From the NCBI RefSeq assembly GCF_000013705.1, contig NC_007947.1, positions 124,001 through 188,000 of the forward strand: a DNA stretch of 64,000 bases, in the 5' to 3' direction. The notes below the pieces were generated by a model. That model was not told the origin of the DNA. It worked only from the letters and a program-made list of their open reading frames with translations, and ran no database searches. This stretch comes from Methylobacillus flagellatus KT (GTDB lineage: Bacteria; Pseudomonadota; Gammaproteobacteria; Burkholderiales; Methylophilaceae). Position 1 is the stretch's first letter, and each line of letters begins with the position of its first letter. Made by a program: the position numbers and the translations under genes. Positions 30,872 through 57,143 of this stretch are shown here, piece by piece.

Positions 30872-30874
30872 AGC

Positions 30875-31717
30875 ATGCAGCTTGTCATCGTGACCGGTCT
30901 TTCGGGTTCAGGCAAGAGCATCGTGCTCAAGATGCTGGAAGACAGTGGTTACTATTGCATCGACAACCTGCCTGCCACCCTGCTGCCTCAAGCTTCGGAA
31001 CATCTGAGCCAAGGCAATCACCAAAGAGTGGCAATCAGCATCGATACACGCAGTGCCTCGCTCGAGGCGCTGCCAGGCAACATCCGCAAGCTCAAGGATG
31101 AGGGCATCGAGGTACAGGTGCTTTTTCTCGAGGCCAATGTGGAGACACTGGTCAAGCGCTACAGCGAAACGCGCCGGCGCCATCCCTTGAGCAGTGACAC
31201 CAGCACTCTGGCGGAGAGCATCAGTCACGAACGCCACATGCTGGAGCCTCTGGTTGATCTGGGGCTGCGCATCGATACCAGCAGTCTCAGCGCCAATGCC
31301 TTGCGCAATTGGGTCAAGGAATTCGTGACGCAGAAAAACGGTGAACTCATCCTGCTCTTCTCCTCGTTTGGTTTCAAGCATGGGATTCCGCTGGATGCAG
31401 ATTATGTGTTTGACGTGCGCTGCCTGCCCAACCCCTACTATGATCCGGCGCTCCGGCCCCAGACCGGACAGGACAAGCCCGTGTGTGCGTTCCTGGAGGC
31501 ACATGACAGCGTACAGAACATGTATGACGATATCCGCGGTTTCATCGAGCGCTGGCTGCCCAACTTCATTGCCGACAACCGCAGCTACTTGACCGTGGCG
31601 ATCGGTTGCACCGGCGGCCAGCACCGCTCGGTCTATCTTGCAGAACGTCTTGCGGCACATTTCCGCCGCCAGGAATACCGCGTGCTGGTGCGGCATCGAT
31701 CACTGGAGACCAACTAG
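30875..31717 (+). CDS. rapZ: RNase adapter protein RapZ
   Basis: A 280-residue nucleotide-binding protein. The N-terminal P-loop is VTGLSGSGKSIVLKMLEDSG, followed by YYCIDNLPATLLPQ and RSASLEALPGN. The C-terminal domain has SFGFKHGIPLDADYVFDVRC, LPNPYYDP and IGCTGGQHRSVYLAERLA. In enterics RapZ delivers the GlmZ sRNA to RNase E to set glucosamine-6-P synthase levels; in betaproteobacteria the target is not established. It starts 3 bp after hprK. Confidence 0.95.
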   Translation: MQLVIVTGLSGSGKSIVLKMLEDSGYYCIDNLPATLLPQASEHLSQGNHQRVAISIDTRSASLEALPGNIRKLKDEGIEVQVLFLEANVETLVKRYSETRRRHPLSSDTSTLAESISHERHMLEPLVDLGLRIDTSSLSANALRNWVKEFVTQKNGELILLFSSFGFKHGIPLDADYVFDVRCLPNPYYDPALRPQTGQDKPVCAFLEAHDSVQNMYDDIRGFIERWLPNFIADNRSYLTVAIGCTGGQHRSVYLAERLAAHFRRQEYRVLVRHRSLETN

Positions 31718-31763
31718 GCCGCGTAGCCAGCCGCAGCGCAGCCGAGGATATGGAATACAACGC

Positions 31764-32174
31764 ATGATAGGTATACTCATCATTGCCCATGGCACCCTGG
31801 GCGAAAGCCTGATTCACTGTGCAAGCCACGTCATGGGCTCGCGACCGCCGTTGCTGAGGCAGCTCGGGGTTGGTACGCATGACGACCCGGGCGAATTACT
31901 GCCGCAGGCCCAGCAAATGATCAGGGAACTGGACGAGGGGCAGGGAGTGCTGATACTTTCAGATATCTACGGCGCCACACCCTGCAACCTGGTGACAAGG
32001 CTGCTGATTCCCGGCCATGTCGAAGGCGTGGCCGGGGTCAACCTGCCTATGCTGGTGCGGGCGCTCACCTATCGGCAAGACAACGGCATCATGACCCTGG
32101 TCGAGAAGTCCATCAGCGGCGGACGCGAAGGCGTGGTGCATTTTTCCAAGGACGCATGTAAGCATCATGATTAA
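31764..32174 (+). CDS. PTS EIIA component, mannose/fructose-type (ManX-like)
   Basis: A 136-residue EIIA of the mannose family, with the phosphorylatable His in ILIIAHGTLGESLIH (about residue 9) and the LILSDIYGATPCNLVTRLL segment. No EIIB or EIIC partner is encoded in the window, so it is probably a signalling EIIA of the regulatory PTS. I chose the ATG at 31764 (MIGILIIAHG); the upstream frame starts inside rapZ. It overlaps the HPr gene by 8 bp. Confidence 0.92.
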   Translation: MIGILIIAHGTLGESLIHCASHVMGSRPPLLRQLGVGTHDDPGELLPQAQQMIRELDEGQGVLILSDIYGATPCNLVTRLLIPGHVEGVAGVNLPMLVRALTYRQDNGIMTLVEKSISGGREGVVHFSKDACKHHD

Positions 32175-32436
32175 ACAAGAAATAGAAATCATCAATAAGC
32201 TGGGCCTGCATGCCCGCGCATCCACCAAGCTCACGCAGACTGCCAGCCAATATGCCTGCGAAATCTGGATCGAACGCAATGGCAGGCGCGTCAACGCCAA
32301 GAGCATCATGGGCGTGATGATGCTCGCGGCGAGCAAGGGCAGCAAGGTGACGCTCGAAACGAACGGCAGCGACGAACAGGCTGCCATGGATGCCCTGGTG
32401 AAGCTCATCAACGACCGTTTTGGCGAACCTGAATAA
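32167..32436 (+). CDS. ptsH: phosphocarrier protein HPr
   Basis: An 89-residue HPr with His15 in NKLGLHARASTKL (the EI/EIIA phosphorylation site) and Ser46 in RVNAKSIMGVMML (the HprK site), both at canonical positions. It carries phosphate from EI to EIIA and, with HprK nearby, can be switched off by Ser phosphorylation. It overlaps the EIIA gene and precedes ptsI by about 40 bp. Confidence 0.95.
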   Translation: MIKQEIEIINKLGLHARASTKLTQTASQYACEIWIERNGRRVNAKSIMGVMMLAASKGSKVTLETNGSDEQAAMDALVKLINDRFGEPE

Positions 32437-32479
32437 CGGTTTCGCCATGCCTTCCTTCCCCCCTCAGGAATAATCTTCC

Positions 32480-34219
32480 ATGGCGCAGAGCAGCAAGGTC
32501 AGTTTTTCCATGCACGGCGTCGGCGTGTCGGGTGGCATCGCCATCGGCAGCGCCCATCTCGTCGCCAATGCCCTGGTCGAAGTGGTGCATCACCAGATTC
32601 CCAGGAAAGCGGTCGCAGCCGAAATCATCCGCTTCGAGCAGGCATTGGCCCATGTCAGGCGCGACCTCGAGTCCGTGCGCGAGCAATTGCCGGCCAATGC
32701 GCCTGCAGAGCTGGCAGCCTTCATCAACACGCATCTGATGATATTGTCCGACAAGCATTTGTCGGAAGCGCCCAAGGCCATCATCGAACAGGAGCTGTGC
32801 AATGCCGAATGGGCATTGAAGCAGCAGATGCATGAGCTGGTGGCGCAGTTCGAACTGATTGAGGATGAATATCTGCGCGAGCGCAAGCAGGATGTGGTGC
32901 AAGTGGTGGAGCGCATCATCAAGGCCCTGCTTGGCCACCCCAGCGCGGCCGTACGTCCGGAGGAAAGCGCGCAGATACTCGTGGCATACGATGTGTCGCC
33001 GGCCGATGCCATCCAGTTCAAGCATCACCAGTTTGCGGCTTTCATCACGGACGTGGGCGGCGCGACCTCGCATACTGCCATCCTGGCCCGCAGCCTGGGC
33101 ATTCCCTCCATTGTGGCGCTGCACCGTGCGCGTGACCTGATCCGCGACGGCGAACTCATCATCGTCGATGGCAACCACGGCATCGTCATTGTCAACCCGG
33201 ACAAGGATACCCTTGCCGAATATCGCCTGCGCCAGGAGGCGTGGGAGCTCGAGCAACAGAAGCTCAAGCGCCTCAAGCTGACCAAGGCAGTAACCCTGGA
33301 CGGGGTTGAGGTCGAGCTGCATGCCAACATTGAAGTGCCTTCCGACGTTGCCAAGGCCAAGGCGGTGGGGGCTACCGGCATTGGCCTCTACCGCACTGAA
33401 TTCCTGTTCATGAACCGGCGCGAGATGCCGGATGAGGAGGAACAATTCGCCGCCTATCGCACAGTGGCGGAGATGATGAAAGGGATGCCGGTGACCATCC
33501 GCACCCTTGATCTGGGCGCTGACAAGCAGATGAACCCGGATGCCGCACGCAGCTGCACCAATCCCGCGCTGGGCCTGCGTGCTATCCGTCTGTGCTTATC
33601 CGAGCCGCAGATTTTCCTGACCCAGTTGCGTGCCATCCTGCGCGCCTCGCATTACGGCAAGATCAAGATTCTGATTCCCATGTTGTCGTCGTTATTGGAA
33701 TTGAGGCAGACGGTCAGCTTGCTGGAGCGTGCCAAGGACAGCCTGCGCGAGCAAAACATCCCGTTCGACGACGGGATCATGCTGGGCGGCATGATCGAGA
33801 TTCCTGCCGCGGCCATCAATGCCGAGGCATTCGCGCGCGAACTGGATTTCCTTTCCATCGGCACTAATGACCTGATTCAGTATTCATTGGCGATCGACCG
33901 GACGGACGATGCGGTGTCGCATCTCTACAAACCTTCCCATCCTGCCGTGCTCAAACTGATCGAAATCACGATCAAGGCTGGCAACAAGCTGGGCAAGCCG
34001 GTGTCGGTGTGCGGCGAAATGGCGGGCGAGCTTCATTTCACGCGGCTGCTGCTCGGCCTGGGACTGCGCCAGTTTTCCATGCATCCATCGCACTTGCTGA
34101 CCATCAAGCGCCAGGTGCTGCAGACTGAATTGCAGTCCATCGTCGCCATGGCCCGTAAAGTCATGAACACTTACGATATCGACAAGATCGAACCTTTGCT
34201 GGAAAAACTCAATCAGTAG
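32480..34219 (+). CDS. ptsI: PTS enzyme I
   Basis: A 579-residue phosphoenolpyruvate-protein phosphotransferase. The N-terminal HPr-binding and phosphohistidine region contains DVGGATSHTAILARSLGIPS with the active His at residue 198. The C-terminal PEP-binding barrel has GIGLYRTEFLFMNR, RTLDLGADKQ, GMIEIPAAAINAEAFA and VSVCGEMAGE with the active Cys. It heads the relay EI, HPr, EIIA. No sugar permease is nearby, consistent with a purely regulatory PTS. Confidence 0.96.
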   Translation: MAQSSKVSFSMHGVGVSGGIAIGSAHLVANALVEVVHHQIPRKAVAAEIIRFEQALAHVRRDLESVREQLPANAPAELAAFINTHLMILSDKHLSEAPKAIIEQELCNAEWALKQQMHELVAQFELIEDEYLRERKQDVVQVVERIIKALLGHPSAAVRPEESAQILVAYDVSPADAIQFKHHQFAAFITDVGGATSHTAILARSLGIPSIVALHRARDLIRDGELIIVDGNHGIVIVNPDKDTLAEYRLRQEAWELEQQKLKRLKLTKAVTLDGVEVELHANIEVPSDVAKAKAVGATGIGLYRTEFLFMNRREMPDEEEQFAAYRTVAEMMKGMPVTIRTLDLGADKQMNPDAARSCTNPALGLRAIRLCLSEPQIFLTQLRAILRASHYGKIKILIPMLSSLLELRQTVSLLERAKDSLREQNIPFDDGIMLGGMIEIPAAAINAEAFARELDFLSIGTNDLIQYSLAIDRTDDAVSHLYKPSHPAVLKLIEITIKAGNKLGKPVSVCGEMAGELHFTRLLLGLGLRQFSMHPSHLLTIKRQVLQTELQSIVAMARKVMNTYDIDKIEPLLEKLNQ

Positions 34220-36870: not shown

Positions 36871-37515
36871 TCAGGACTTTCTAATCCTCATCAACCCTAA
36901 CAATCCCAGACCGGCCATCAGCATCGCCAGTGAGCCCGGCTCAGGAACGGCCGTGACGGTATAGCTGATATTGTCAATGCCAACATTGTAGGCGCTGTTG
37001 TACCACTCGATGGTGATATTGCTGCCGATGCCTGCTGCACCGAAAGCCGAGAAAGTGCTGGCGAGGTTACCAGTGCCGATAATGCCCTCGAAGGCATATG
37101 TGTCTATGCCATTGGATACTGTTAAATGCGTATAACGTGCACTGGATGGATATGCGCCGAGATCCAAGCTATCGAGATTGATGAAATAGCCATCCGTTGC
37201 AGCCAGGATGATACGCCCTCGGGAGTTGCTGTCGTTTCCACCGGCCCACAGGATATTTTCTAGTTGGTTGTAACTGGTGCTCCAGAATTGCAGACTGGTG
37301 TTGTCGGTGTTGGCATTGAGATAACTGACGTCCACTTCGGCCGTATCACCGTAATTCTGGTTGATATATGAGTAATTGCTGCAGGGCGAGAACGCACCAG
37401 AGCCGTCGATGTTGGCGCTACATATGTTGCTTTCTGAAAAATCCAGGGTGCCGGCCATGGCCCCGCCAGATAGTTGCAAACCCAAGAGTAAGCCGAGCAG
37501 TGCGGCTGCTTTCAT
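36871..37515 (-). CDS. PEP-CTERM sorting domain protein
   Basis: A 214-residue secreted protein with a signal peptide (MKAAALLGLLLGLQLSGGAMA), a Ser/Asn/Tyr-rich body and the C-terminal tripartite sorting tag: VPEPGSLAMLMAGLGLLGLM followed by RIRKS. PEP-CTERM proteins are processed by EpsH-type exosortases and go to the outer envelope or exopolysaccharide matrix. No exosortase gene is in the window. The body is not recognisable. The Asn- and Tyr-rich composition differs from neighbouring genes. Confidence 0.9.
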   Translation of the reverse strand: MKAAALLGLLLGLQLSGGAMAGTLDFSESNICSANIDGSGAFSPCSNYSYINQNYGDTAEVDVSYLNANTDNTSLQFWSTSYNQLENILWAGGNDSNSRGRIILAATDGYFINLDSLDLGAYPSSARYTHLTVSNGIDTYAFEGIIGTGNLASTFSAFGAAGIGSNITIEWYNSAYNVGIDNISYTVTAVPEPGSLAMLMAGLGLLGLMRIRKS

Positions 37516-38204: not shown

Positions 38205-39503
38205 ATGGACACGAATTTTGAGCGTAGGCGAATCATGCAGATGCTTGCAGCGGCTTCTGCCGCAGCGGCAGTACCCATCGGGACAATTGCGGCCGCAGCG
38301 GATGGTGCGGCGCCGAAGAAACCTACTGGCAAGCCCATTGTGCTGGGTCTGACAATTTCGACTACTGCGGCGGCAGGGGTGGCTGATCATGCTGACCACA
38401 TGAATGGCTCGTTGCTTGCGCAGGAGGAGATCAATGCCAATGGCGGCATCCTTGGCCGGCCATTGGAGCTGAGGCCAGTCGATGTCGATTTGCTCTCTGC
38501 GGAAAGCTGCCAGGCTTCTATCCGCAAACTGGTTGACCTGAAGGTACATGCGATCAGTTCGCCTTTCCTGTTTGTGCCGATCCCCGCCATGGATGCCTCG
38601 GCCAACTACAAGTGTCCGTACGTCAATGGCAATACCCAGCGTGCAGCTACCGACATGGTCGCCAAGCATCCCGAGAAGTACAACCATATTTTCCAGATGG
38701 ACCCGTCAGAGGTGTTCTATGGCGAGACCTTCCCGGTGTTTCTCGAGAGCCTGGCGGACAGTGGCAACTGGAAGCCCAAGAACAACAAGGTGCATATCGT
38801 TCAGGAACAGATTGCCTACTGCCAGACGATTTCACGCGCCTGCCAGGAGGCGCTCAAGAAGAGCCGTTTCGAGCTGGCCAAGGTGACCGATATCCAGTAC
38901 CCGGTACAGGATTGGGGCAGCGTGATCCGTGACATCAAGAAAACGGGCGCAGGGACGGTGATGATGGACCATTGGGTGGCTGCCGAGTATGCGGCCTTCT
39001 GCAAGCAGTTCCGGGCCAACCCGCTCAAGGGGACATTGATCTATCTGCAGTACGGTCCGTCGCAACCTGAGTTTCTGGAACTCACCGGCAAGGCAGCAGA
39101 AGGCTTTGTCTGGAGCACGATGCTGGGCGTGTATGCCGACAAGAAAGGGCAGGCTTTCCGCGATAAGTACCAGAAGCGGTTCCCGGGAAAGACGATGGGG
39201 CTGTGCTACACCGGCGGCGGTTATGACATCGCCTACATGATGGCGCAGGCATGGAATGCCGTAGGCAATCCCGATGACTTCAAGGCCGTGAACGATTACA
39301 TCCGCAAGACTGCATTCCGTGGCGTATGCGGCTGGTCGTACATGAACAATCCCCGGCAGGAGGCGCGTCATTTCCCACTCGGGACGGACAGCATCGAGAG
39401 CGGCATGAGCCAGCTTTACTTCCAGATCCAGGATGGCAAGAACAAGATCATTTACCCGCCACAACTCAAAGAGGCAGATTTCCGGCTAACGCCTTGGATG
39501 TAA
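38205..39503 (+). CDS. amide/urea-type ABC transporter substrate-binding protein (FmdD/UrtA-like)
   Basis: A 432-residue periplasmic binding protein of the Leu/Ile/Val/urea/amide class. The N-terminus has a twin-arginine-like segment (ERRRIMQMLAAAS) then a cleavable region, so Tat export is possible. The body shows KPIVLGLTISTTAAAGVADH, EEINANGGILGRPLELRPVD and KAAEGFVWSTMLGVY. The closest described systems are FmdD of Methylophilus (short amides and urea) and UrtA. GGAG precedes the start. The transporter and DMFase genes downstream make a short amide or DMF the likely ligand (inference). Confidence 0.85.
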   Translation: MDTNFERRRIMQMLAAASAAAAVPIGTIAAAADGAAPKKPTGKPIVLGLTISTTAAAGVADHADHMNGSLLAQEEINANGGILGRPLELRPVDVDLLSAESCQASIRKLVDLKVHAISSPFLFVPIPAMDASANYKCPYVNGNTQRAATDMVAKHPEKYNHIFQMDPSEVFYGETFPVFLESLADSGNWKPKNNKVHIVQEQIAYCQTISRACQEALKKSRFELAKVTDIQYPVQDWGSVIRDIKKTGAGTVMMDHWVAAEYAAFCKQFRANPLKGTLIYLQYGPSQPEFLELTGKAAEGFVWSTMLGVYADKKGQAFRDKYQKRFPGKTMGLCYTGGGYDIAYMMAQAWNAVGNPDDFKAVNDYIRKTAFRGVCGWSYMNNPRQEARHFPLGTDSIESGMSQLYFQIQDGKNKIIYPPQLKEADFRLTPWM

Positions 39504-39538
39504 CCAGGCTTTTACAGACGATTTGATGGGTGTGGGTG

Positions 39539-40255
39539 ATGACAGCTTTATTTGAAGGCAGGGATATCAAGCTAGAGCTTGGCGGCAGGGAGATCCTGAA
39601 AGGTATTTCTCTCTCGGTGGAAAAGGGTGAGGTGATGGGCATCATCGGCCCCAACGGGGCGGGCAAGACCAGCCTGTTCGAGGTGTTGAGTGGCCGCATA
39701 TTCCCCAAGAGCGGGCAGGTGACGTTCAAGGGGCAGGATGTGACTTCCCTGCCGCTCTTCAAGCGGGCGCGCCTTGGTATCGGGCGTACTTACCAGACGC
39801 CGCTGGTGCCGGACGAACTCAAGGTAGGGGAGGTACTCAAGGCAGCACGCCAGGCCTACCTGCCTTATCTCACCAGCCATGATGCCGAATGGGGGCTGGA
39901 TCTGGTGAATCTGCATGTGGATTTTGACCAGTATGCCCGCGAGTTGGAAACGCTGAACCGCCGCAAGTTATTGCTGGCGTGCCTGCTGATGCGGCGTCCG
40001 CCCTTGCTGTTGCTTGATGAGCCGGCAGCAGGCTTGATCAACTCCGAGGTCGATGAGCTGGATCACCTGATGCGCAAGCTTTCAAAGGAAATGGGCGTGT
40101 CCATCATCATTGTGGAGCACCGCATGGAGCTGCTGGAGATGATTGCGGACCGCGTCATGGTCATGGATGCAGGGGAGCAGATTGCCGAGGGGACGCTGGC
40201 CAGTGTCCTCGCCAACCCGCAGGTCCATGCCGCCTATTTCGAGAATGTCGAGTAA
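39539..40255 (+). CDS. ABC transporter ATPase, LivG/UrtD-type (amide uptake)
   Basis: A 238-residue ATPase. Walker A is [17 protein letters not shown] and Walker B LLLLDEPAAGLINSEVDEL. The signature region (ELETLNRRKLLLACLLMRRP) lacks the usual LSGGQ and reads LNRRK, a notable deviation. The following NSEVDELDHLM and SIIIVEHRMELLEMI are LivG-like. The start at 39539 is 35 bp after the binding-protein stop. It works with the second ATPase and the two permeases that follow. Confidence 0.87.
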   Translation: MTALFEGRDIKLELGGREILKGISLSVEKGEVMGIIGPNGAGKTSLFEVLSGRIFPKSGQVTFKGQDVTSLPLFKRARLGIGRTYQTPLVPDELKVGEVLKAARQAYLPYLTSHDAEWGLDLVNLHVDFDQYARELETLNRRKLLLACLLMRRPPLLLLDEPAAGLINSEVDELDHLMRKLSKEMGVSIIIVEHRMELLEMIADRVMVMDAGEQIAEGTLASVLANPQVHAAYFENVE

Positions 40256-40302: not shown

Positions 40303-41028
40303 GTGAGTGAGCGAAAGGAAATTCTCAACATTCAGGGCCTTTCCGCAGGATGGGGGCCGATGCGGGTGATTCATGACCTGGATCTGGTGGTGTATGCCGG
40401 TGAGCGCATTGGCATCGTGGGGTTGAACGGTCATGGCAAGTCCACCCTGTTTTCCGCCATTGCCGGCATGACGGACTGGCAACGTGGTTCCATCAAGCTC
40501 AATGGCAAGGAAGTGGGCGGCACGCGCAGCCAAGGGCCCGGACGCTACACGCATCTGGTGGTGAGGCAGGGATTGGCGCTCATGCCGCAGGGCGATGAGA
40601 TATTTACCGGCCTGACCGTGGAAGAGCATCTGGATAGCGGCGCCTTCACGCCGGCGGCATGGCGCGATCGCAAGGCGCGCAAGGAAAAGATACTGGAGAT
40701 CTTCCCGCCACTGCGGAAGTTGATGAGTACGCCGGTCGGGCGTCTGTCAGGCGGCGAGCGGCGCATGGTGTCTCTCGGACGCGGTTTGATGTCGGATGCC
40801 TCTCTCTTGCTGGTGGATGAGCCCTCGCTGGGGCTGGCTCCCAAGATCGGCAAGGGGGTGATGAAGGCCCTGATGGAAATCGAGCTGGGCAATTCCGCCA
40901 TGATCATTGCAGAGCAAAACATGGCTTTGCTCGAAGGGCAGGTCGACAGGGTGATCGGCATGCATGTGGGGAAACTGAAAGGCGAGGCATCCACTTCGCT
41001 TGCCCATGAAATGAAGAGGGAGATATAG
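40303..41028 (+). CDS. ABC transporter ATPase, LivF/UrtE-type (amide uptake)
   Basis: A 241-residue ATPase. The Walker A motif is GIVGLNGHGKSTLFSAI (the usual NGAGKT reads NGHGKS), the signature VGRLSGGERRMVSLGRGL and Walker B LLLVDEPSLGLAPKI; EQNMALLEGQVDRVIGM is LivF-typical. The GTG start is preceded by GGGAGG. A 16-codon mini-ORF at 40260-40310 ends over its start and could couple translation. The permease gene follows 4 bp later. Confidence 0.87.
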   Translation: MSERKEILNIQGLSAGWGPMRVIHDLDLVVYAGERIGIVGLNGHGKSTLFSAIAGMTDWQRGSIKLNGKEVGGTRSQGPGRYTHLVVRQGLALMPQGDEIFTGLTVEEHLDSGAFTPAAWRDRKARKEKILEIFPPLRKLMSTPVGRLSGGERRMVSLGRGLMSDASLLLVDEPSLGLAPKIGKGVMKALMEIELGNSAMIIAEQNMALLEGQVDRVIGMHVGKLKGEASTSLAHEMKREI

Positions 41029-41032
41029 GGCC

Positions 41033-41920
41033 ATGGACATTGATATCGGTTTTGTTGCCATCACGGCGGTTACGCTGGCCTGTATATACGGCACCCTGGC
41101 TATCGGGGTGTCGATCACATGGTCCAGCCTGGGCCTGATTAATATGAGTTACGGATTTACTTTCGCGACAGCAGGTTACGGCGCCTGGCTCGTCAGTGAG
41201 TATATTTCCTCGTTGGGCCCGGTCGTGATCCTTGGCGGCATCCTGACCGGCGCGCTGGTCGGGGTGCTGGTATGCGCGGTGGCCTTCATCCCTATCCACG
41301 ACAAGCCTAATTTTACGGTACGCGGGTTGATTGCATCGCTGGCGTTGAGCCTGATCGGCACCCAGGCCCTGCTGTATTTCTTCGGGCCGCAATCGAAAAC
41401 GCTGCCGCCCCTGTTTGGCGACTGGGAACTTGAGCTGGGCGAAGTGGTGCTCACTGCCGACAAGGGCGGCGCCATCCTGACCTCCATCCTGATGCTTACC
41501 CTGGCCTTATGGTGGTTGCGCTCCAGTCGCCGCGGGCTGGAAATCCGCGCCATGATGATGAACCCGCATGCAGCCTCGCTGGTAGGCATAGGCGTCAGGC
41601 GTACTGGATTCTATGTCATGGCCCTGACCGGCGGGCTGGCTGGCCTTGCATCCGTCCTGCTGTCGCAAACTTACTTCGTCAGCCCGTTTTCCGGCGTCAC
41701 CCCGCTGATCAAGGGCTTGAGCGTGGCTTTGTGCGGCGGGTTGGGCAGCGTCGGCGGCGCCATGATTGCTGCGGTCATGATCGGCGTCAATGAGGCGCTG
41801 ACGGCCGATATCCTCGGTGGCCAATACATCCTGATCACCCAGTTCCTGCTGATCATACTGGTGCTGATCATCCGTCCGCGCGGTATCGCCGGCATTCTCG
41901 ATAAACAACGCGAGGCGTAA
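41033..41920 (+). CDS. ABC transporter permease, LivH/UrtB-type (amide uptake)
   Basis: A 295-residue inner-membrane permease with about eight spans. Family features include GLINMSYGFTFATAGYGAWL near the N-terminus, LEIRAMMMNPHAASLVGIG, GGLAGLASVLLSQTYFVSP and LSVALCGGLGSVGGAMIAAV near the end. It resembles FmdE/UrtB. It pairs with the following LivM-type permease, whose gene begins 2 bp after this stop. Confidence 0.88.
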   Translation: MDIDIGFVAITAVTLACIYGTLAIGVSITWSSLGLINMSYGFTFATAGYGAWLVSEYISSLGPVVILGGILTGALVGVLVCAVAFIPIHDKPNFTVRGLIASLALSLIGTQALLYFFGPQSKTLPPLFGDWELELGEVVLTADKGGAILTSILMLTLALWWLRSSRRGLEIRAMMMNPHAASLVGIGVRRTGFYVMALTGGLAGLASVLLSQTYFVSPFSGVTPLIKGLSVALCGGLGSVGGAMIAAVMIGVNEALTADILGGQYILITQFLLIILVLIIRPRGIAGILDKQREA

Positions 41921-41922: not shown

Positions 41923-43560
41923 ATGGCAAATCTCTGGAAAAATCCCGTCGCCAATTGGAGCATCAAGGGAGAGGCGGACAATGTGCCGACCATTCCATGG
42001 ACCTCTCCTCTCAAGCCTTGGATTGAGACAACCAAGGCGAAGCAGAAACTATACAAGGTAGGGCGCCTGCGCTACTACTACAAATTCCCCGGACATGGCG
42101 CCAGGACCTGGCACCGCTGGCGTTATCCCTTTACCCGCAGGCGTATCCTGAACATCCGAGGTGAGTACAACGCCAAGAGCCTGCGCCGGGAAAAAACCAT
42201 TCTCGACCGCCGCCCGGTCTACTGGATGCTGAGTTTCATCGCCATGGTGATTGCACCCCTGCTCATGCCCGGCGGGCTCGAAAGTACCCTGCTCAATGCG
42301 GGGGCCGTGTTCTTCATCTACGCTGCCATCAACCTATGCTGGACGCTGGTGATCGGCACTGCAGGGATTTTCTCCCTGGCATCGATGGCCATTGTCGGCG
42401 CCGGAGCCTACGGGGCTGCCTACCTCTCCCTGACTTACGGCCTGCCGTGGTGGTCGCTGCCCATGGTGGGGTCGGTGATCGGCCTGGTGTTCGGGATATT
42501 GATCGCATTGCCGGCAACGCGGCTGGAAGGCTTCTATTACGCGCTGCTCACCTTGGGCCTGGTGGAACTGTGCCGTGTGTACGTGATCCAGTCGCGTACC
42601 TTCGGCTCAGCCACTGGCGGCGTCTATGGCGCAGACAGCTACCTGCCTGACGGCATCAGTGAGATCAGCGGCCTCACCATCAGTTACTACGTCTGTTTTG
42701 CCGTCATGCTTGCGGTGCTTTTCATGTTCCGCTTCATCCAGGGCAAGCGCCTGGGACGGATTCTGCGCATGGCGCCCGAAAAGCGCGAGGCCTTTGCCGA
42801 GGCCACAGGCGTGAACTTCCGCTGGGCGCGCATTCAGGTCTTCATCATTACCTCGGTGGTCCTGGGGGCGCTGGGCGGGGTGTATGCCAGCCACTTCCAC
42901 GGTGCATCTCCTTCGCTGTTTTCCATGGATTCCGTTCTGCTTGGCCTAGCCATGCTGGTGATCGGGGGGATCGGACGCTCGGAAGGCGCGGTCTTCGGCA
43001 CCCTGGTCGTCGTGATGATCGACAAGGTCTTCATCGATTGGGGCCCGCTGCGATTGATCCTGATCGGCGTGATCATGCTGTCGGTGGTGTTGTTCCTGAA
43101 GGGCGGGGTCTTCGGGATCAAGCAGCAGTTTCGCGCCTGGCGCAACAAGAAGAAAAGTGAAAACCGTTCAACTCGTGCAGAAAAAGGTGGGGAAATGTTA
43201 CCTGAAGAAGCTACAGAAACACATGACAAAGACCAGATATTCCTGCGTCGCTTCGACAAGATGCAACGTGATTACCTGAAGACCCTGGTATCCGAAGAAG
43301 TCATCGAGGAACACAGGCGCAGCCCGCTTGGGCAGCACAGCGAGGCATTGGAGCGCCTGCTGAATTACTTCCGCCGGCAGCCGCAAAGCGACAAGTATGC
43401 CCTCGAAGCCATCGAGCCCTTCAAGTCCTACCGCATCATTGCGATGTCTGGACAGCGAGGGGTACCGCCCCGCGTCGTGGAAGACAAAATCTATAAATCA
43501 GAATCAGAGGCCTTGCATGCCGTGTTCGTGCGCCGTGTACAGGACTTAATGGAGAGTTAG
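41923..43560 (+). CDS. LivM/UrtC-type permease fused to a DMFase small-subunit-like domain
   Basis: A 545-residue protein in three parts. Residues 1-98 are a basic, aromatic, non-membrane extension (KQKLYKVGRLRYYYKFPGHG). Residues 99-400 are a LivM/UrtC/FmdF permease (NAGAVFFIYAAINLCWTLVI, LALPATRLEGFYYALLTLGL-type segments, GGVYASHFHGASPSLFSMDS). Residues 425-545 match, as far as I recall it, the N,N-dimethylformamidase small subunit: EEVIEEHRRSPLG, LLNYFRRQPQ, KSYRIIAMSG and EALHAVFVRRVQDLM. LivM permeases normally end at about the cytoplasmic tail, and the small subunit is normally a separate gene of about 132 residues. The DMFase large-subunit gene lies 1.3 kb downstream. An internal start at 43195 may also make the domain alone. 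Confidence 0.82.
   Translation: MANLWKNPVANWSIKGEADNVPTIPWTSPLKPWIETTKAKQKLYKVGRLRYYYKFPGHGARTWHRWRYPFTRRRILNIRGEYNAKSLRREKTILDRRPVYWMLSFIAMVIAPLLMPGGLESTLLNAGAVFFIYAAINLCWTLVIGTAGIFSLASMAIVGAGAYGAAYLSLTYGLPWWSLPMVGSVIGLVFGILIALPATRLEGFYYALLTLGLVELCRVYVIQSRTFGSATGGVYGADSYLPDGISEISGLTISYYVCFAVMLAVLFMFRFIQGKRLGRILRMAPEKREAFAEATGVNFRWARIQVFIITSVVLGALGGVYASHFHGASPSLFSMDSVLLGLAMLVIGGIGRSEGAVFGTLVVVMIDKVFIDWGPLRLILIGVIMLSVVLFLKGGVFGIKQQFRAWRNKKKSENRSTRAEKGGEMLPEEATETHDKDQIFLRRFDKMQRDYLKTLVSEEVIEEHRRSPLGQHSEALERLLNYFRRQPQSDKYALEAIEPFKSYRIIAMSGQRGVPPRVVEDKIYKSESEALHAVFVRRVQDLMES
43195..43560 (+). CDS. dmfA1: probable nested start: DMFase small subunit (121 residues)
   Basis: Within the permease reading frame the ATG at 43195 (Met425) follows AAAAAGGTGGGGA, a good Shine-Dalgarno with 5-7 bp spacing. 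Translation from it gives 121 residues (MLPEEATETHDKDQIFLRR onward), close to the known 132-residue small subunit. The shared pattern is EEH, NYFRxQP, SYRI, EAxHAVFxRR. Whether it is made separately, only as part of the fusion, or both, cannot be decided from sequence. The large subunit is thought to need this helical partner for a stable enzyme. Confidence 0.65.
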   Translation: MLPEEATETHDKDQIFLRRFDKMQRDYLKTLVSEEVIEEHRRSPLGQHSEALERLLNYFRRQPQSDKYALEAIEPFKSYRIIAMSGQRGVPPRVVEDKIYKSESEALHAVFVRRVQDLMES

Positions 43561-43613: not shown

Positions 43614-44762
43614 ATGAAGAACAGGCTTGGAAGTAATATCTTACCCTCCGTGATGTTGGCCTGCAGTATGGGCTTCGCCTCGACTGCGCAAGCAGGCGGC
43701 ACCATCAATTTTGGTGAGGATAAGTGGATATCACTGGGTTTTGGTATCCGGACCACGTTCACCAGTACGGAAGATGCCGCCCCCAATGCGAGCTCCAGAA
43801 GCAAGGATTTCGAGCTGGATATCGCCCGGATCTACCTTTCTGGCTCGTTGAACCAATATATCAAGGGAACGGTGACGCTGGACAAGATAGGAGACGATGA
43901 CTTCAGGGTCATCGATGCCTATGGACAACTGGAGTTCATGCCCGAGTTCAATATCTGGGTTGGCCTGCTGCTGCCGCCTTCCGATCGCGTCAATATGAAT
44001 GGGCATTTTTTCATGAACGGCTGGAGTTTCCCCGGCGTTGTGTCGCAATACCAGAACAAGCAGACCGGGCGAGACAATGGCATATTGTTCTGGGGGAAAG
44101 TGCTGGACAAGCGGTTGGTGTATTCCGCCGGCATCTATGAAGGCAACCAGGCATCCAGCTTTGCGGGCAACAATATTCTGGACCCTAACCGCAGCGACAA
44201 CCTCATGTACGCGGGGCGCCTGCAGTATGACTTCTGGGAGGCCAACCTGGACCCAGGTTTCTACACCAGCAGCGCCTATTTCGGCAAGGATGTGCTGTCC
44301 CTGGGCTTTTCGGGCCGCTATCAGAAAGATGCTGTCGGCAGCGTAATTGCCCGCGATGATTACCTAGGCTATAACGTCGATTTCCTGCTGGAAAAAGTGT
44401 TACCCGGCGGCGTGCTGGACATCGAGGCAGCGGCTTACCGCTATGACTTTGACAATGATGCCGTGCTGGCAGGCATGGATATCAATGGCGTCAGCCGCGT
44501 CCAGGCGGGCAAGGCCTACCTCGGAGTTCTGTCCTGGATGTTTCCGCAGACGGTTGGGTGGGGAAGGTTCCAGCCTTATACCCGCTACCAGAAGTTCGCG
44601 GCCGATGGCAATGCCAGCCTGGATGTCAGGGAATACGACATTGGGCTGAATTACATCATCGACGGCCACAATGCCCGCATCAGCGGTGTTTACACCAAGA
44701 ACAAGACGGAAAACCAGGATAGCTACGACAAGTTCGTCGTTGGTCTCCAGCTGCAGTTCTAA
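43614..44762 (+). CDS. outer-membrane porin (amide/DMF operon)
   Basis: A 382-residue porin-like protein. A signal peptide (LPSVMLACSMGFASTAQAG) is followed by a beta-strand-rich body with alternating aromatic residues (YQNKQTGRDNGILFWGK, LDPGFYTSSAYFGKD) and a C-terminal aromatic (VVGLQLQF, last residue Phe). I chose the ATG at 43614, 8 bp after GAAGGA; an upstream TTG adds five residues. It probably gives amides or DMF a route through the outer membrane; this is inferred from its position between the permease and DMFase genes. Confidence 0.82.
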   Translation: MKNRLGSNILPSVMLACSMGFASTAQAGGTINFGEDKWISLGFGIRTTFTSTEDAAPNASSRSKDFELDIARIYLSGSLNQYIKGTVTLDKIGDDDFRVIDAYGQLEFMPEFNIWVGLLLPPSDRVNMNGHFFMNGWSFPGVVSQYQNKQTGRDNGILFWGKVLDKRLVYSAGIYEGNQASSFAGNNILDPNRSDNLMYAGRLQYDFWEANLDPGFYTSSAYFGKDVLSLGFSGRYQKDAVGSVIARDDYLGYNVDFLLEKVLPGGVLDIEAAAYRYDFDNDAVLAGMDINGVSRVQAGKAYLGVLSWMFPQTVGWGRFQPYTRYQKFAADGNASLDVREYDIGLNYIIDGHNARISGVYTKNKTENQDSYDKFVVGLQLQF

Positions 44763-44845: not shown

Positions 44846-47179
44846 ATGTCTCAAATCAAGATATTTGGCTATACCGACAAAATCTCCGTTAAGCCTGGTG
44901 ATGAGATCGGATTCCATGTGAGTGTCGATGGCACGAAAAAAGTCACTGCGCAACTGGTGAGGCTGATTCATGGGGATGCCTACCCGGACGGCCCTGGCTT
45001 CATCGAGCAGGAAGTGCCTTGTCCCGTCAATGGTGAGTGGGATGTGCAAAAGCAGTTCACCCAGGTCGGCTCGTTTCTCAGGGTGGCGGATCCGGGCAAC
45101 AAGCTGGCGCATGACGGCAGCTTCACCCTGTATGCCTATATCTGGCCCACGTTGCCCACCATCGGCCTGAGGCAGGCGCTGCTGGGGCGCTGGGATTGCT
45201 ATCACAACCAGGGCTATTGCCTGGGCATCAACAAGCAGGGGGTGCTCGAGTTCTGGCTAGGTGATGGCAAGGAAGTGGATTATGTGGCAGCGGAAGTGCC
45301 GCTCATTGCCAAGATGTGGTATTTCGTGGCGGTCAGCTATGACGCCTCGACCGGTAAGGCCACCCTGTACCAGGAAAGCGTGGCTAACCGCTACAACAGC
45401 CTGCTTGGCAAGGTCGTGCCGATGGATTATCGCTCGCATGTGATGGAAGTCATGCGTTTCAGGGCAAGGAATATTCCAGAGGTTCCTTTTCTTATAGCAG
45501 GTTCCCAGGATTGGCATGAGCTCCGCGGACATTTTGTCAACCAGACCTACTGCGGGAAAATAGACCGGCCCGGTATGTATGGCAGGGCGCTATCGCGCGC
45601 CGAGCTTGATGAACTCAAGTCGGGCAAACCACCTTCAACAGAAGGTCTGCTCGCACACTGGGACACCACGGCAGGCTACACCGACAACGGGATAGGGGAC
45701 ACCGTCGTGGATGTGTCGGGCAATGGCCTGCATGCACATGGATACAACCGCCCAGTCCGCGGACAGACCGGCTGGAACTGGAGTGGTCGCAATGACAGCT
45801 TCCGTCTCGCGCCGCAGGAATACGGTGGTGTCGAGTTCCATGCCGACGCCATGATTGACTGCAACTGGAAGCAGACCAAGACGATGCGCATCCCGGAAGA
45901 TCTGCGCAGCGGTGTCTATGCCATCCGATTGCGTGCGGACAACAGCAAGCAGAACACCCAGGGCCTGGATGAGGAGTATGTCGTCTTTTTCGTGAGGGCG
46001 AAGCAGCCGAAAAGCACCTTGGCGCTGCTGATTCCCACCGGCAGTTACCTGGCCTACGCCAATGAACACTTGAGTTTTGATGCGCAGATCGTCCAGCCCA
46101 TGAGTGGCCGGCCTCCCATCATCTCGGCAGTTGATGTCGAGATGTACCAGAATCCCGAGTTCGGTTTTTCGACGTACGACAGTTACATGGATGGTGCAGG
46201 GGTATGCTTCAGCTCCTATCATCGTCCCATCATCAATATGCGGCCCAAATTCCGCATGTCCGGGTTCGGGTCCACCTGGCAATTCCCTGCCGACCTGTCG
46301 ATTGTCGGCTGGCTTGAGCATATGCAGTATGACTATGAAGTCATCACCGAAGAGGATGTGCATCGCGAAGGACTCTCTGCCATGGCGCCCTATCGATGCA
46401 TCATATCGGGTACCCACCCTGAATATATTTCGGAGCGCATTCTGGATGCCCACGAGGATTTCATCGAGCAAGGGGGCCGCTTCATTTATATGGGAGGTAA
46501 CGGCTATTACTGGAATGTGGCCTATCGTGACGATGAGCCGTGGGTCATGGAGGTCAGGAAGCTGGATTCGGGCATGCGCGCATGGGCCGCCAGGCCGGGC
46601 GAGCATTACCTGCAGACCACAGGACAGAAGAGTGGCATCTGGAAAAACCTGGGGCGTCCGCCACAGAAATTATTGGGCGTCGGCTTTATCGGCGAAGGCT
46701 TCGAGAGTGGCCGGCCGTTCCGCCGTATGCCGGATAGCTATCACCGCACCGTGTCCTGGATCACGGAAGGCATAGAAGGCGAAATCCTCGGAGACTTCGG
46801 GCTGGCCCATGGGGGGGCAGCAGGGGTGGAAGTCGACCGTTACGACCTGAGCCTTGGCACGCCGCCGCATGCCAAGATCATTGCATCGTCTGGCGGTCAT
46901 ACCGACAATTATGTCTTGTCCACGGAAGAGCTGCTGTATGCCTACCCTGGCACTGGCGGTACGCAGGATTACAGGGTCAGGGCGGACATCGTCTATTTCA
47001 CCGCTCCCAATCATGGCGGCGTCTTCTCGACCGGCTCGATTGCCTTTGGTCAGGCACTGCCCGCATACAATTTCGACAACAATATTTCCAAGCTGCTCTC
47101 CAATGTAGTCAACGCCTTCATCAAGCCAGGCGCGCTTCCTGGCGGGTTGTGGATTTCGCAAGAGAAGCAGTGGCGATGA
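44846..47179 (+). CDS. dmfA2: N,N-dimethylformamidase large (catalytic) subunit
   Basis: A 777-residue protein matching the DMFase beta subunit, which hydrolyses N,N-dimethylformamide to dimethylamine and formate with a mononuclear iron held by two Tyr and one Glu. Candidates for the ligands here are Tyr404 (TGSYLAYANE), Tyr444 (GFSTYDSYMD) and Glu526 (ISGTHPEYIS). The neighbouring His524 and Glu662 (GVEVDRYD) match the positions I recall as catalytic in the Paracoccus enzyme, shifted by about 5. A lamin-G-like region lies at residues 100-250. AGGAA precedes the start. The only small-subunit candidate is the domain fused to the upstream permease. Confidence 0.9.
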   Translation: MSQIKIFGYTDKISVKPGDEIGFHVSVDGTKKVTAQLVRLIHGDAYPDGPGFIEQEVPCPVNGEWDVQKQFTQVGSFLRVADPGNKLAHDGSFTLYAYIWPTLPTIGLRQALLGRWDCYHNQGYCLGINKQGVLEFWLGDGKEVDYVAAEVPLIAKMWYFVAVSYDASTGKATLYQESVANRYNSLLGKVVPMDYRSHVMEVMRFRARNIPEVPFLIAGSQDWHELRGHFVNQTYCGKIDRPGMYGRALSRAELDELKSGKPPSTEGLLAHWDTTAGYTDNGIGDTVVDVSGNGLHAHGYNRPVRGQTGWNWSGRNDSFRLAPQEYGGVEFHADAMIDCNWKQTKTMRIPEDLRSGVYAIRLRADNSKQNTQGLDEEYVVFFVRAKQPKSTLALLIPTGSYLAYANEHLSFDAQIVQPMSGRPPIISAVDVEMYQNPEFGFSTYDSYMDGAGVCFSSYHRPIINMRPKFRMSGFGSTWQFPADLSIVGWLEHMQYDYEVITEEDVHREGLSAMAPYRCIISGTHPEYISERILDAHEDFIEQGGRFIYMGGNGYYWNVAYRDDEPWVMEVRKLDSGMRAWAARPGEHYLQTTGQKSGIWKNLGRPPQKLLGVGFIGEGFESGRPFRRMPDSYHRTVSWITEGIEGEILGDFGLAHGGAAGVEVDRYDLSLGTPPHAKIIASSGGHTDNYVLSTEELLYAYPGTGGTQDYRVRADIVYFTAPNHGGVFSTGSIAFGQALPAYNFDNNISKLLSNVVNAFIKPGALPGGLWISQEKQWR

Positions 47180-47346: not shown

Positions 47347-47546
47347 TTTGTACATGAAAGTACCCGGCAGCGGATCAATCGCCTGAAAGACGTTGCATAG
47401 GATAAGTAATCCGTTGTTTATATTAGTGTTTTTGTAAATTTTCGTGCAGGGTGGCTGACAGGGGAGTGCCCATGACCCAAGATTGGGCAGGCCTGCCCAA
47501 TTCGGTGACATCACGACTGCCTGGAAATTGCAAGGGGAGCCAAGTC

Positions 47547-48617
47547 ATGACCAGTACTGTCGAGGCATTCAGCAACGTATTGCTTAAACTGCATGATATT
47601 GCCGAATATGCGCCTATTGATCGATATCAGGAACTTGCATTGGATACAGTGCAGGAAATCCTGCCTTTTGATACCGCGTGGTGGGGGATCATGTCTCCCA
47701 ATGAGATCAGTTTCAGCTTGCACGGCTCGCATCTGCATAACTTGCCGAACTCCTTTGTGCCGATGTGGGAAGAGCTCAAATACGATGATGCGTTGGCAAA
47801 GGCGGTGGAAGTCAAACCGGCGCAGACGGTGTATTTTGACCAGCCTGCATTTGACGATGCGCCCGGGCTGGCGACCCTGATGGGCGAACATGCCGTGAAG
47901 CAGGCTTTCTGCACTTCCCACTATCTGCCTTCTGAAAATGCTTTTGTCTTTCTGTCTCTTTATCGCGAGCAAGGGTCGCCGCGCTTCACTGTCAGGGAAG
48001 GCTTGCTCAACAAATTCCTCATGCCGCATTTGTGCGCACTATGGGAAAGCAACAGGATGCGCTACAGCGAGCAATACAAGGACAGATTGCAAGACGAATC
48101 CATCTACCTTGCCATTGTCGACCGGCAGTTCCAGATATTTGACGCCGATAACACCTTCTTCGATATCTTGCGGCAGGAGTGGCCGAAGCTGAACAGCCTG
48201 ACCCTGCCTCAGGCGATGATTGCCCAAATGAGCCGTGAGACGAGGATTGCTGAAATCAAGTTCTCCAAGATCATTGCGCGTTATGAGTTCATTGGCGATT
48301 TCTGTATCCTGGCCATCCGGCAAAGGCAGCGGATCGATTTGCTGACCAAGCGAGAGTTGATGGTGGCCCAAGCCTTTTCCACCGGAGCCAGTTATAAGGA
48401 TATCGCCAAGTCAGCCAACCTTTCACCCACCACCATACGCTACTACCTGCGGGTGATTTACGATAAGCTCAATGTCAACAACAAGGCCGAAATGGCGACC
48501 GTGCTCAGAAACACCTCCCTTTCTGAGTCGCAAAAAACCTGGATGCAGTCTTACCGCGTCATACAACGCGTGAGTGGGCGCGCCAGTGGCCCGATATTCA
48601 GCCTACCAGGCAAATGA
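47547..48617 (+). CDS. LuxR-family transcriptional regulator of the DMF island
   Basis: A 356-residue protein starting MTSTVEAFSNVLL at 47547, preceded by AAGGGGAG; an upstream GTG at 47451 would add 32 unconserved residues. The N-terminal 270 residues have no recognised sensor domain. The C-terminus is a LuxR/FixJ HTH: LTKRELMVAQAFSTGASYKD, IAKSANLSPTTIRYYLRVIY, DKLNVNNKAEMATVL. A LuxR-type activator called DmfR controls dmfA genes in Methylobacterium, as I recall, so this is a plausible functional equivalent. It has its own sigma-54-like promoter. Confidence 0.82.
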   Translation: MTSTVEAFSNVLLKLHDIAEYAPIDRYQELALDTVQEILPFDTAWWGIMSPNEISFSLHGSHLHNLPNSFVPMWEELKYDDALAKAVEVKPAQTVYFDQPAFDDAPGLATLMGEHAVKQAFCTSHYLPSENAFVFLSLYREQGSPRFTVREGLLNKFLMPHLCALWESNRMRYSEQYKDRLQDESIYLAIVDRQFQIFDADNTFFDILRQEWPKLNSLTLPQAMIAQMSRETRIAEIKFSKIIARYEFIGDFCILAIRQRQRIDLLTKRELMVAQAFSTGASYKDIAKSANLSPTTIRYYLRVIYDKLNVNNKAEMATVLRNTSLSESQKTWMQSYRVIQRVSGRASGPIFSLPGK

Positions 48618-54377: not shown

Positions 54378-57143
54378 TCATTTGTCCTGTTTCTTCAGTA
54401 GGAGCACTGTTGTCACCAGGACCACGGGAATGGCGGCCAACAACGGCCAGAATGAGGCTTGCAGGTCGGAGAAATCCAGCGCCTTGCTGAACACACCGCG
54501 GGTGATGATCAGCATATAAGTCGTCGGGTAGATCTCGCCGACGATGCGGCCTGCGCCTTCCAGCGACGAGACCGGGTTGAGCATGCCGGCGAACTGCACC
54601 GCCGGGACGATGGAAGCGATCATGGTGAAAAACAGCGCAGCAATCTGGCTGCGGGTGAAGGTGGAGGCGAGCAGGCCAATCCCAGTGGCGACGATGCTAT
54701 AGAGGAAGGCTGCCAGCGCCAGTGTGGCGAAGCTGCCCTTGACCGGCACGTCGAATACCGTCACGGCGAGCAATACCATCAGCAGGAAATTCAGCATGGC
54801 AAGTGCGACATAGGGCAATTGCTTGCCGAGCAGGAATTCGGTGCGGGTCACTGGCGTCACGTACAGGTTGATGATGGAACCCAGCTCCTTCTCGCGCACC
54901 ACGGACAGGGCGGACAGCATGGCAGGCAGCATGAGCAGCAGCAGAGGGATCACGGCCGGCACCATTGCCGGCAGGCTGCGCACATCTGGATTGTAGCGGT
55001 AGCGCGTCTCTATGGTGGCCGCGCTTGCGACCGTGACGCCCAGCCGCTCCTGCGCCTGTTGTTGCAGCCATTGCTGGTGGATACCTTGCACATAGCCCTG
55101 CACTGTCTCGGCGCGCTGCGGCATGGCGCCGTTCACCCAGGCGCCGATTTCGGCCCGGCTGCCGCGTTGCACGTCGCGGGCGAACCCCGGCGGTATTTCA
55201 ATGGCGAGTGACAGTTCGCCGCTGCGCATGCGCTGGTCCAGCTCCTGATAATCCCGGATCGGTGGCTGCTCGATGAAGTAGCGCGAGCCGGAGAGATTGA
55301 GCGCGTAATTCTGGCTCAGCGTGGTCTGGTCGCGGTCCAGCACGGCATAGGTCAGGTCCTCGACATCCATGCTGATGCCGAAGCCCATGACGAACATGAG
55401 CAGCATCGAGCCTGCCAGGGCGAGGCCGCCGCGTACCGGGTCGCGCTGTAGCTCCAGCATTTCGCGCCAAAGGTAGCTGAACATGCGATTGAAGCTGAAA
55501 AACCTAAGCTTGGCCTGATGGCTGCCTTGTGCAATATCCGGCGTTGAGGGAGTGGTTTGTTGGGTGTCATTGGTGCCGGTGTCAGTGCCGCCGCCGGCTT
55601 CCACCAGGTAGTCGATGAAAGCCTGCTCCAGCGTATCGGCATTGCGCTGCGCGACGATGTTCGCAGGCGTGTCACTAACCAGCACCTTGCCCGCATGCAT
55701 CAGCGACATACGGTCGCAGCGCTCGGCCTCGTTCATGAAATGGGTGGAGATGAAGATGGTGACCCGGTCACGGCGCGACAGCTCGATCAACAGGCGCCAG
55801 AAATTGTCGCGGGCGACCGGGTCGACGCCGGAGGTTGGTTCGTCGAGAATCAGCAGCTCGGGTTTGTGCACCATGGCGACGGCCAGCGACAGGCGCTGGC
55901 GGATGCCGAGCGGCAGGCCATCTGGCAGGCTGTCGAGCGCTTCCTCCAGGTCGAAGCGCTGCACCATTTCATTTACACGGGCGGGAATGTCTGCTTCCGG
56001 CACGTGGAACAGGCGGGCATGCAGCACCAGATTCTGCCGGACGGTCAGCTCGGTGTAGAGCGAAAACGCCTGCGACATGTAGCCGACGCGGCGGCGGGTG
56101 TCGATGTCCCTGGGGTCGATTTCGTGCCCGAACAGCCAGGCTTGCCCTTCGCTGGCGGGCAGCAGGCCGGTGAGCATTTTCATGGTGGTGGATTTGCCGC
56201 AGCCATTGGAGCCGAGAAAGCCGAAAATCTCGCCGCGGCGAATGCGGAAGCTGACGTGGTCGACGGCAACGAAATCGCCGAAACGCATGGTAAGGTCTTT
56301 GGCCTCGATGGCGATATCCGCGTTGCTGCCGTCGCCTTCTGGCAAGGGCGGAATCGTGACTTCCTCGTGGCCCTGTTTTTTTTCTTCCGGAAGCAGCGCG
56401 ATGAACGCGGTTTCGAGGGAGCTGGAGCCCGTGCGTTCAAGCAGTTCCTGTGGCGTTCCCGTCGCCAGTACCTGGCCTTCATCCATTGCCACGAGCCAGT
56501 CGAAGCGCTGCGCCTCATCCATATAGGCCGTGGCGACAATGACGCTCATGCTGTTTCTTTCCTGGCGGATGCGCTTGATCAGATCCCAGAACTGGGCACG
56601 CGCGAGCGGGTCGACGCCGGTGGTGGGCTCGTCGAGGATCAGCAGGTCGGGGTCGTGGATCAGCGCGCAGCACAGGCCCAGTTTCTGTTTCATGCCGCCG
56701 GACAGCTTGCCTGCCGGCCGGTCTAGGAATTTTTGCAGGCCGGTGCTGCGCGTGAGATCGTCGATGCGTCGTCTGCGTTCCTGCGCATCATGGCCGAACA
56801 GGCGGCCGAAGAACTGCAGGTTTTCCTCTACCGACAATGTCGGGTAGAGGTTCTTGCCCAGGCCTTGCGGCATATAGGCGATGCGCGGGCAGACATCGTC
56901 GCGGTGCTGCTTGCTGGACATATCGCCGCCCAGCGCCTCCACCTTGCCCGTCTGCACCGCCCTTGCACCTGCCACCAGCGACAGAAGGCTGGACTTGCCG
57001 ACACCGTCCGGGCCTATCATGCCCACCATGCAGCTGGCAGGGATATCGAGGCTGATACCGTCCAGTGCAATGGTCTTGCCGTAATGCAGGCTGACGTCCT
57101 GCAAGCGGACTGCGGACGCCACCTGCTGCCGGGTGTCGCTCAC
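54378..57143 (-). CDS. rbbA: RbbA-like fused ABC ATPase/permease (YhiH-type)
   Basis: A 921-residue protein with two ABC ATPase domains and a C-terminal ABC-2 permease domain. ATPase 1: [52 protein letters not shown]. ATPase 2: [50 protein letters not shown]. The permease part starts near residue 570. This is the YhiH/RbbA layout. It probably drives efflux through the HlyD adaptor and outer-membrane factor. It overlaps the HlyD gene by 4 bp (ATGA). Confidence 0.92.

Follow-up and report, generated by a model that had tools for sequence, protein, structure and literature searches.

An ABC-importer permease gene with a DMFase-type small subunit at its 3' end and a probable internal start for a free copy of that subunit

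The DMFase of Paracoccus (DmfA1/DmfA2; 6lvb) is the closest described relative of the enzyme considered here. According to those parts of its published description that were available, it is an α2β2 enzyme or a dimer of that, its large subunit is inactive alone, and the N-terminal helix of its small subunit lies between a pair of large subunits (PMC7686228). The small subunit of Paracoccus pAMI2 and Methylobacterium DM1, unlike that of the locus described below, has a gene of its own, situated between a LuxR gene and the large-subunit gene; in the stretches seen of these two, no transporter is annotated near the DMFase genes. Two other systems resemble the present one in how a C-terminal product is supplied. 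Cas11 is translated from an internal start in cas8 or cas10, a C-terminal small subunit thus coming from inside the gene of a larger subunit, and has a separate gene in other subtypes, as far as the available part of the source extends (PMC11899642). For SpaO of the type III secretion sorting platform, the accessible portion of the source describes a second translation start within the final third of the gene; the C-terminal domain made from it is a free protein that acts together with the long form (PMC13059759). The long product in the Cas11 case, in the same partial source, is a subunit of the same soluble complex, whereas here it is a membrane transporter, and SpaO belongs to a secretion platform without importer or hydrolase. 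A fusion of a DMFase small subunit to a permease was not found in the DMFase and fusion literature that we could consult, in which few subscription journals were covered; dmfA1/dmfA2 are treated in PMC4543880 and PMC11381386, and the available parts of these papers, like those of PMC10308929, contain no description of it.

The locus lies in a stretch of 64,000 nucleotides of Methylobacillus flagellatus KT, here called the window, whose own coordinates are used throughout. The genes concerned are as follows.

38205..39503, + strand: periplasmic substrate-binding protein of the importer (PF13458, family scan)
39530..40255, + strand: first importer ATPase (read by eye, P-loop GPNGAGKTS)
40303..41028, + strand: second importer ATPase (read by eye, P-loop GLNGHGKST)
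41033..41920, + strand: LivH/UrtB-type permease, presumed partner of the fused permease (family scans)
41923..43560, + strand: fused gene of 545 codons, in which a LivM/UrtC-type ABC permease is followed by a DMFase small-subunit domain at the C-terminus
43614..44762, + strand: porin-like gene, downstream of the fused gene and upstream of the large-subunit gene (NF040900, 70.2 bits, below the cut-off of 150)
44846..47179, + strand: DMFase-type large subunit (iron amidase), 777 codons (homology; active-site residues)
47451..48617, + strand: LuxR-type regulator adjoining the operon, possible regulator (GerE match)

Permeases of the LivM/UrtC type (PF02653) likewise stand in an operon with a binding protein, two ATPases and a LivH-type partner; unlike them, the fused protein has a 100-residue N-terminal extension and a C-terminal enzyme subunit. 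Its reading frame is uninterrupted over all 545 codons, and it scores above the PF02653 cut-off (87.8 bits against 26.8, E 8.4e-25) inside an importer operon, which identifies it as a LivM-type importer permease. The three NCBIfam models that match it do so with scores far below their cut-offs. Within the gene we distinguish the following parts.

41923..42222, + strand: N-terminal extension of the permease, 100 residues, K/R-rich (23 K+R, 6 D+E), conserved in a 49-row alignment
42295..43086, + strand: permease domain PF02653, residues 125-388 (family scan; weak BtuC-type fold matches)
43111..43194, + strand: linker, residues 397-424, conserved and K/R-rich, after the last predicted membrane helix
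43111..43227, + strand: 39 codons (397-435) base-identical to Methylobacillus arboreus, the longest such run (next longest 10)
43184..43192, + strand: Shine-Dalgarno-like (SD) sequence AAGGTGGGG 5' of the internal ATG (duplex energy -7.9 kcal/mol)
43195..43560, + strand: nested in-frame gene for a free small subunit, 121 codons, the predicted second product (ATG = codon 425)

The original prediction let the permease end at about residue 410. That boundary needs correction, in that the last predicted membrane helix stops at residue 396 and residues 397-424 form a linker, while the continuation of the frame beyond the permease stands. Linker residues are invariant across the 49 alignment rows, and the K/R-rich tail following the last predicted membrane helix suggests that the small-subunit domain is cytosolic. 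The AlphaFold model of the fused protein, built with 49 sequences, has a mean pLDDT of 70.3 and a pTM of 0.50, and the arrangement of the modelled parts is therefore not to be trusted; the ten-residue mean pLDDT is 74-89 from residue 441 onward and below 50 at residues 410-422. Ordinary LivM proteins are not known to have an N-terminal extension of this kind, and the strongly basic extension could be a second docking site.

The assignment of residues 425-545 to the DMFase small subunit, made at first from short sequence motifs, proved sound. These 121 residues match the Paracoccus small subunit 6lvb_B with an E value of 3.9e-13 over positions 11-118 of 121 and are 33% identical to pAMI2 DmfA1; in protein databases the domain is family PF26354. 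When the model was searched against the PDB, only three matches had E values of 0.001 or less, all of them DMFase small subunits, and the modelled domain superimposed on 6lvb_B with a TM score of 0.82 (by target length) and 30% identity in the structural alignment. BtuC-type permeases came next (2qi9_A, 1l7v_A; probability 0.99-1.00, E 0.009-0.09). The domain is thus a small subunit of the 6lvb_B family and fold, and the structural comparison that had been proposed as a check revealed a real similarity. The large subunit of the window is 42% identical to pAMI2 DmfA2 and conserves Y399, Y440, E521, H519 and N547 (Paracoccus numbering); all the iron ligands are present, Y399, Y440 and E521 being invariant columns in a four-row alignment, and this places it among the DMFase-type iron amidases. 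Its next solved relative after DMFase is 8huy, named an N-acetyl-(R)-beta-phenylalanine acylase, so other amides are possible as substrate. DMF itself crosses membranes easily, and for this reason also the natural substrate may be another amide.

It had further been claimed that no separate small-subunit gene exists around dmfA2, and this can be extended to the whole genome, a single contig of 2,971,517 bases, in which no convincing second small subunit was found; the next match had an E value of 0.21 and contained three internal stops. A search with a 38-row alignment at E 1e-10 returned the fused ORF as its single match, and a PF20254 search of the whole genome detected one large subunit. 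Neither of the two outcomes named beforehand as fatal to the prediction, a lack of similarity or a second small-subunit gene, was thus obtained. Only in the window and in the M. arboreus locus (L010), among the 94 loci counted below, is the large subunit so distant from the fused gene. The LuxR-type gene at 47451..48617 was considered as DmfR and rejected, as a BLAST comparison with the Paracoccus pAMI2 LuxR regulator gave no significant match. Elsewhere in the window we noted a small protein (36871-37515, - strand) with a C-terminal PEP-CTERM-like sorting signal, VPEPGSLAMLMAGLGLLGLMRIRKS, recognized by eye; genes for HPr kinase, a RapZ-like protein and a PEP-utilising enzyme (29912-34219), apparently a PTS-type regulatory cluster; and a row of ABC-2 exporter, HlyD-type and outer-membrane efflux genes (54378-59706, - strand).

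From the sequence comparisons that follow, we consider it likely that both products, the fused permease and the free subunit, are made and that both matter. The full ORF would give an ABC-importer permease with a DMFase-type small subunit at its cytosolic C-terminus, and initiation at codon 425 (43195), for which a separate SD is present, would give the same 121-residue small subunit in free form. The free subunit would complete a soluble iron amidase, and the tethered one would fill one small-subunit place in some complexes, by which the amidase would be held at the inner face of the importer.

An internal ATG with a good SD had been predicted at the domain border. Both elements are indeed there, but the SD is only fair. 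In duplex energy it surpasses the sites at the starts of the permease (-5.9 kcal/mol), porin (-5.9) and large-subunit (-4.3) genes and falls behind the one at the LivH-type gene start (-9.0), and it is no stronger than chance for the codons of its peptide (percentile 0.51). The mRNA around the internal start of the window is open (-7.7 against a mean of -16.8 kcal/mol, third of 96 places in openness). In the comparison with M. arboreus, 173 of the 545 codons differ silently; the 39-codon identity between the two exceeds the need of an initiation region and might conceal another RNA element. One explanation of the locus is that only the fusion is made and the tethered subunit does everything, M425 being just a conserved residue and the SD-like stretch a consequence of the KGGE peptide. 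Such a peptide alone yields an SD-like sequence (median expected energy -8.6), which the SD of the window does not surpass, and KGGE is retained even at loci without the internal start. In addition, no general silent-site constraint was detected over codons -7 to 3 in 24 disjoint pairs (57 against 61.1 expected). We nonetheless judge this explanation improbable in view of the start codons and codon choice of the related loci.

We read 110 loci, of which 97 were distinct and fused, 12 were duplicates and one (L071) had a broken frame. The 97 fused loci span the Alpha-, Beta- and Gammaproteobacteria, SAR11 included, and 94 have a large subunit in view downstream. Counts over 94 loci omit L024, L054 and the truncated copy L205, for none of which a large subunit is in view, and tests over 92 tips additionally omit the short rows L075 and L077. 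Loci are described as having no separate gene when none is in view within 7 kb downstream; for five of these 62 (L030, L038, L062, L079 and L086) less than 3.3 kb lies downstream, and a distant separate gene could be missed. L199 was placed in the separate-gene group for the 94-locus start and SD counts, the independent-pair test and the first 92-tip tests, and in the group without a separate gene for codon choice, mRNA folding, clusters, start rank and silent-rate pairs; it was left out of the two-large-subunit group in the dN/dS comparison. The tree-based test was repeated with L199 placed both ways for the start codon and in the group without a separate gene for the SD.

An in-frame ATG, GTG or TTG was present at residue 1 or 2 of the domain in all 62 loci without a separate small-subunit gene (ATG in 55), in contrast to 15 of the 32 loci with one (12 ATG), and all 17 loci that lack the internal start have a separate gene. 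Over the 92 tips, the start was present or absent in 62 and 0 loci without a separate gene and in 14 and 16 with one (Fisher p 4.6e-10). A purpose-written likelihood test of correlated evolution over the same tips, using the permease tree with a midpoint root, gave LR 19.15 (p 7e-4; p 6e-4 when repeated with a strong SD), on a tree with long branches and unresolved forks. In this test, starts were lost at a rate close to zero in lineages without a separate gene and at 2.3 in those that have one; the tree holds few independent events (4 changes of the separate-gene state and 8 of the start). The independent pairs that differ in both traits, too few for a sign test to separate the alternatives, went in the expected direction, except for one pair in a few of the 200 SD-test pairings. 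When the loci were clustered at 90% identity, the start was kept throughout in 38 of 38 clusters without a separate gene against 3 of 16 with one, and at 80% in 24 of 24 against 1 of 7; at 75% only two clusters have a separate gene, and just one of these retains the start in all its members; of the 19 without, one is mixed. Starts at residue 2 in loci without a separate gene all fall within one supported 13-row clade, in which the codon is GTG, TTG or ATG, and thus the codon varies and the start persists. The idea that the start had shifted in three lineages was rejected because all the shifted rows sit in that clade. The internal start is the best-placed in-frame start in 63 of 63 loci without and 25 of 31 with a separate gene, a measure that hardly separates the groups.

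The ribosome-binding site was also compared between the two groups. The median SD energy was -11.8 kcal/mol in loci without a separate gene and -7.5 in those with one (Mann-Whitney p 1e-6, 92 tips), with one group of loci without a separate gene reaching only about -7.4. Where no separate gene is in view, the Lys codon of the SD is AAA in 47 of 54 rows, against 11.1 expected from the codon usage of each gene (the count omits nine SAR11 rows carrying Arg at this position), and the Gly pair contains GGA/GGG in 63 of 63, against 29.4 expected. With a separate gene the numbers are 3 of 31 for AAA (6.0 expected) and 6 of 31 for GGA/GGG (17.2 expected). Per-sequence counts overstate independence, and we therefore give the counts per 80% cluster as well: AAA 17 of 22 (5.2 expected) and GGA/GGG 24 of 24 (11.7 expected) without a separate gene, and 1 of 7 for each with one (1.8 and 3.7 expected). 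Relative to the rest of the gene, the mRNA at the internal start is open where a separate gene is lacking (mean z +1.28, n=63) and more folded where one is present (mean z -0.69, n=31). The three SD codons changed silently 6 times in 72 in pairs lacking a separate gene and 5 times in 30 in pairs that have one; lower silent divergence at the start is seen just in these three codons and in the pair formed by the window and M. arboreus. Codon usage thus falls far short of explaining the choice of KGG codons, and does so only at loci with no separate gene in view; together with the start in 62 of 62 such loci, this argues against the fusion being the sole product. Start and ribosome-binding site appear to be kept by selection in the family as a whole, and not visibly in the SD energy of the window itself or in a lower silent rate over codons -7 to 3. 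The prediction had offered either a fusion or a nested gene producing both forms, and the start codons, SD codons and tree-based tests favor the production of both.

The opposite explanation is that the free subunit alone matters and the fused protein is a tolerated by-product. In its favor, the Paracoccus small subunit dmfA1 stands alone, and in L071 the frame is broken about 40 codons 5' of the internal ATG (a sequencing error is possible) with the free frame and the large subunit intact. However, 97 of the 98 distinct loci maintain one frame, in a sample ranked by similarity to the fused query; the linker residues are invariant in the 49 rows; and the fused domain, at loci that have both, is conserved more strongly than the separate gene. 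Where a separate gene accompanies a single large subunit, the median dN/dS was 0.138 for the fused domain, 0.146 for the permease and 0.410 for the separate gene, and in the group with two large subunits the values were 0.087, 0.055 and 0.239, respectively; in loci without a separate gene they were 0.255 for the fused domain and 0.300 for the permease. These are simple Nei-Gojobori estimates from which saturated pairs were dropped. The strong purifying selection on the fused domain despite the presence of a separate gene argues that the fused form has a job of its own, and we regard the by-product explanation as highly improbable.

The separate genes of the single-large-subunit group make up a clade of their own (support 84), distinct from those of the two-large-subunit group, in a small-subunit tree that has 113 columns and is weakly resolved; separate supply thus seems to have arisen at least twice. 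Two different large subunits with the separate small gene between them are seen in L042, L049, L051, L053, L055-L058, L063, L070, L077 and L200-L203, and four of these (L056, L057, L070 and L077) have ATC or CTG in place of the internal start codon, which looks like decay. L199 has a fused gene and a large subunit of the divergent type, followed by a second small subunit and a 115-residue match to a second large subunit, which looks like the remains of another operon. Ten SAR11 (Pelagibacteraceae) records (L050, L065, L066, L071, L072, L073 and L078-L081) carry AGGAGGAGAA 5' of the internal ATG and have a large subunit behind the fused gene, the frame of which is broken in L071; the substrate may be a natural marine amide.

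The fusion is not the rarity that the original prediction implied. With residues 400-545 as query, 584 database proteins of suitable length matched at E ≤ 0.001 among 837 candidates, and each of the best 120 of these contains PF26354 as well as PF02653; at residue 425, 117 of the 120 have Met, two Leu and one Ile (three rows were read by eye). The annotation of the fused relatives is 'branched-chain amino acid ABC transporter permease'. When one genome per species was scanned, at least 79 loci were obtained, ranked by similarity to the window and hence biased to fused ones; of the related genomes behind these loci 36 were searched, and in 7 of them nothing but the fused gene matched at E 1e-8. 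Fused or alone, the domain was found in 6 of 274 genomes of the class (a fused-length frame only in the window's own genome), 9 of 399 of the order, 20 of 397, 2 of 292 and 1 of 197 of three orders centred on relatives, 18 of 213 of one genus and 2 of 6 of one family, with E limits that differ among the class, order, genus and family scans. Another genome of the window's own genus had no match to the domain (38-row alignment, E 1e-10). By name, the fused gene occurs in rhizobia and methylotrophs, and also in SAR11 single cells. The fused protein was found at E ≤ 1e-40 in 26 of 72,556 plasmid records, all 26 typed conjugative; the patchy occurrence in genomes and the copies on conjugative plasmids suggest lateral movement. 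The copies in L068 (titled Oceanobacillus sp.) and L030 (a Klebsiella pneumoniae MAG) group with alpha- and gammaproteobacterial rows, and these names may be wrong or the contigs misbinned. An archaeal fusion was considered for a Halalkalicoccus plasmid protein named 'inner-membrane translocator' (L207, 6779-7321) and rejected, the protein being a stand-alone small subunit of 180 residues whose name was apparently carried over from fused relatives.

Given that both products are probably made, the role of the tethered copy was considered. An importer of this type contains one LivH-type and one LivM-type permease. Because there is one LivM-type permease per importer, a free supply of at least one small subunit per enzyme would be required; an importer that offers one tethered subunit to an enzyme needing at least two would explain why a free supply is kept, whether from the nested start or from a separate gene. 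The chances that the tether docks the amidase at the inner face of the importer seem to us evenly balanced. The original suggestion that DMF could be hydrolysed on its way in reaches further than the sequence comparisons do, with regard to docking, to channelling and to DMF as substrate. By analogy with the known enzyme, docking may be hindered by the N-terminal helix of the small subunit that lies between two large subunits. Alternatively, with both products made, the tethered domain could be a sensor that tunes transport to the free large subunit or to substrate; the genetic evidence for two products serves this reading equally and fits docking and gating alike, and we hold it possible, though unlikely. 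As a whole, we tentatively propose, at somewhat less than even confidence, that the importer permease is a covalent small subunit of the enzyme that cuts the imported substrate, in one membrane assembly, that the free subunit is also made, and that lineages with a separate gene, apparently of at least two origins, let the internal start decay and kept the tether.

To our knowledge, channelling from transporter to enzyme has often been proposed and has rarely been fixed in one polypeptide. Here the link between transporter and enzyme is covalent and occurs in many proteobacteria, masked by the permease annotation. Comparing lineages with and without a separate gene offers a natural experiment in the supply of a single subunit in tethered and free copies, and a genome that seemingly has no DMFase small subunit may hold one inside a permease gene.
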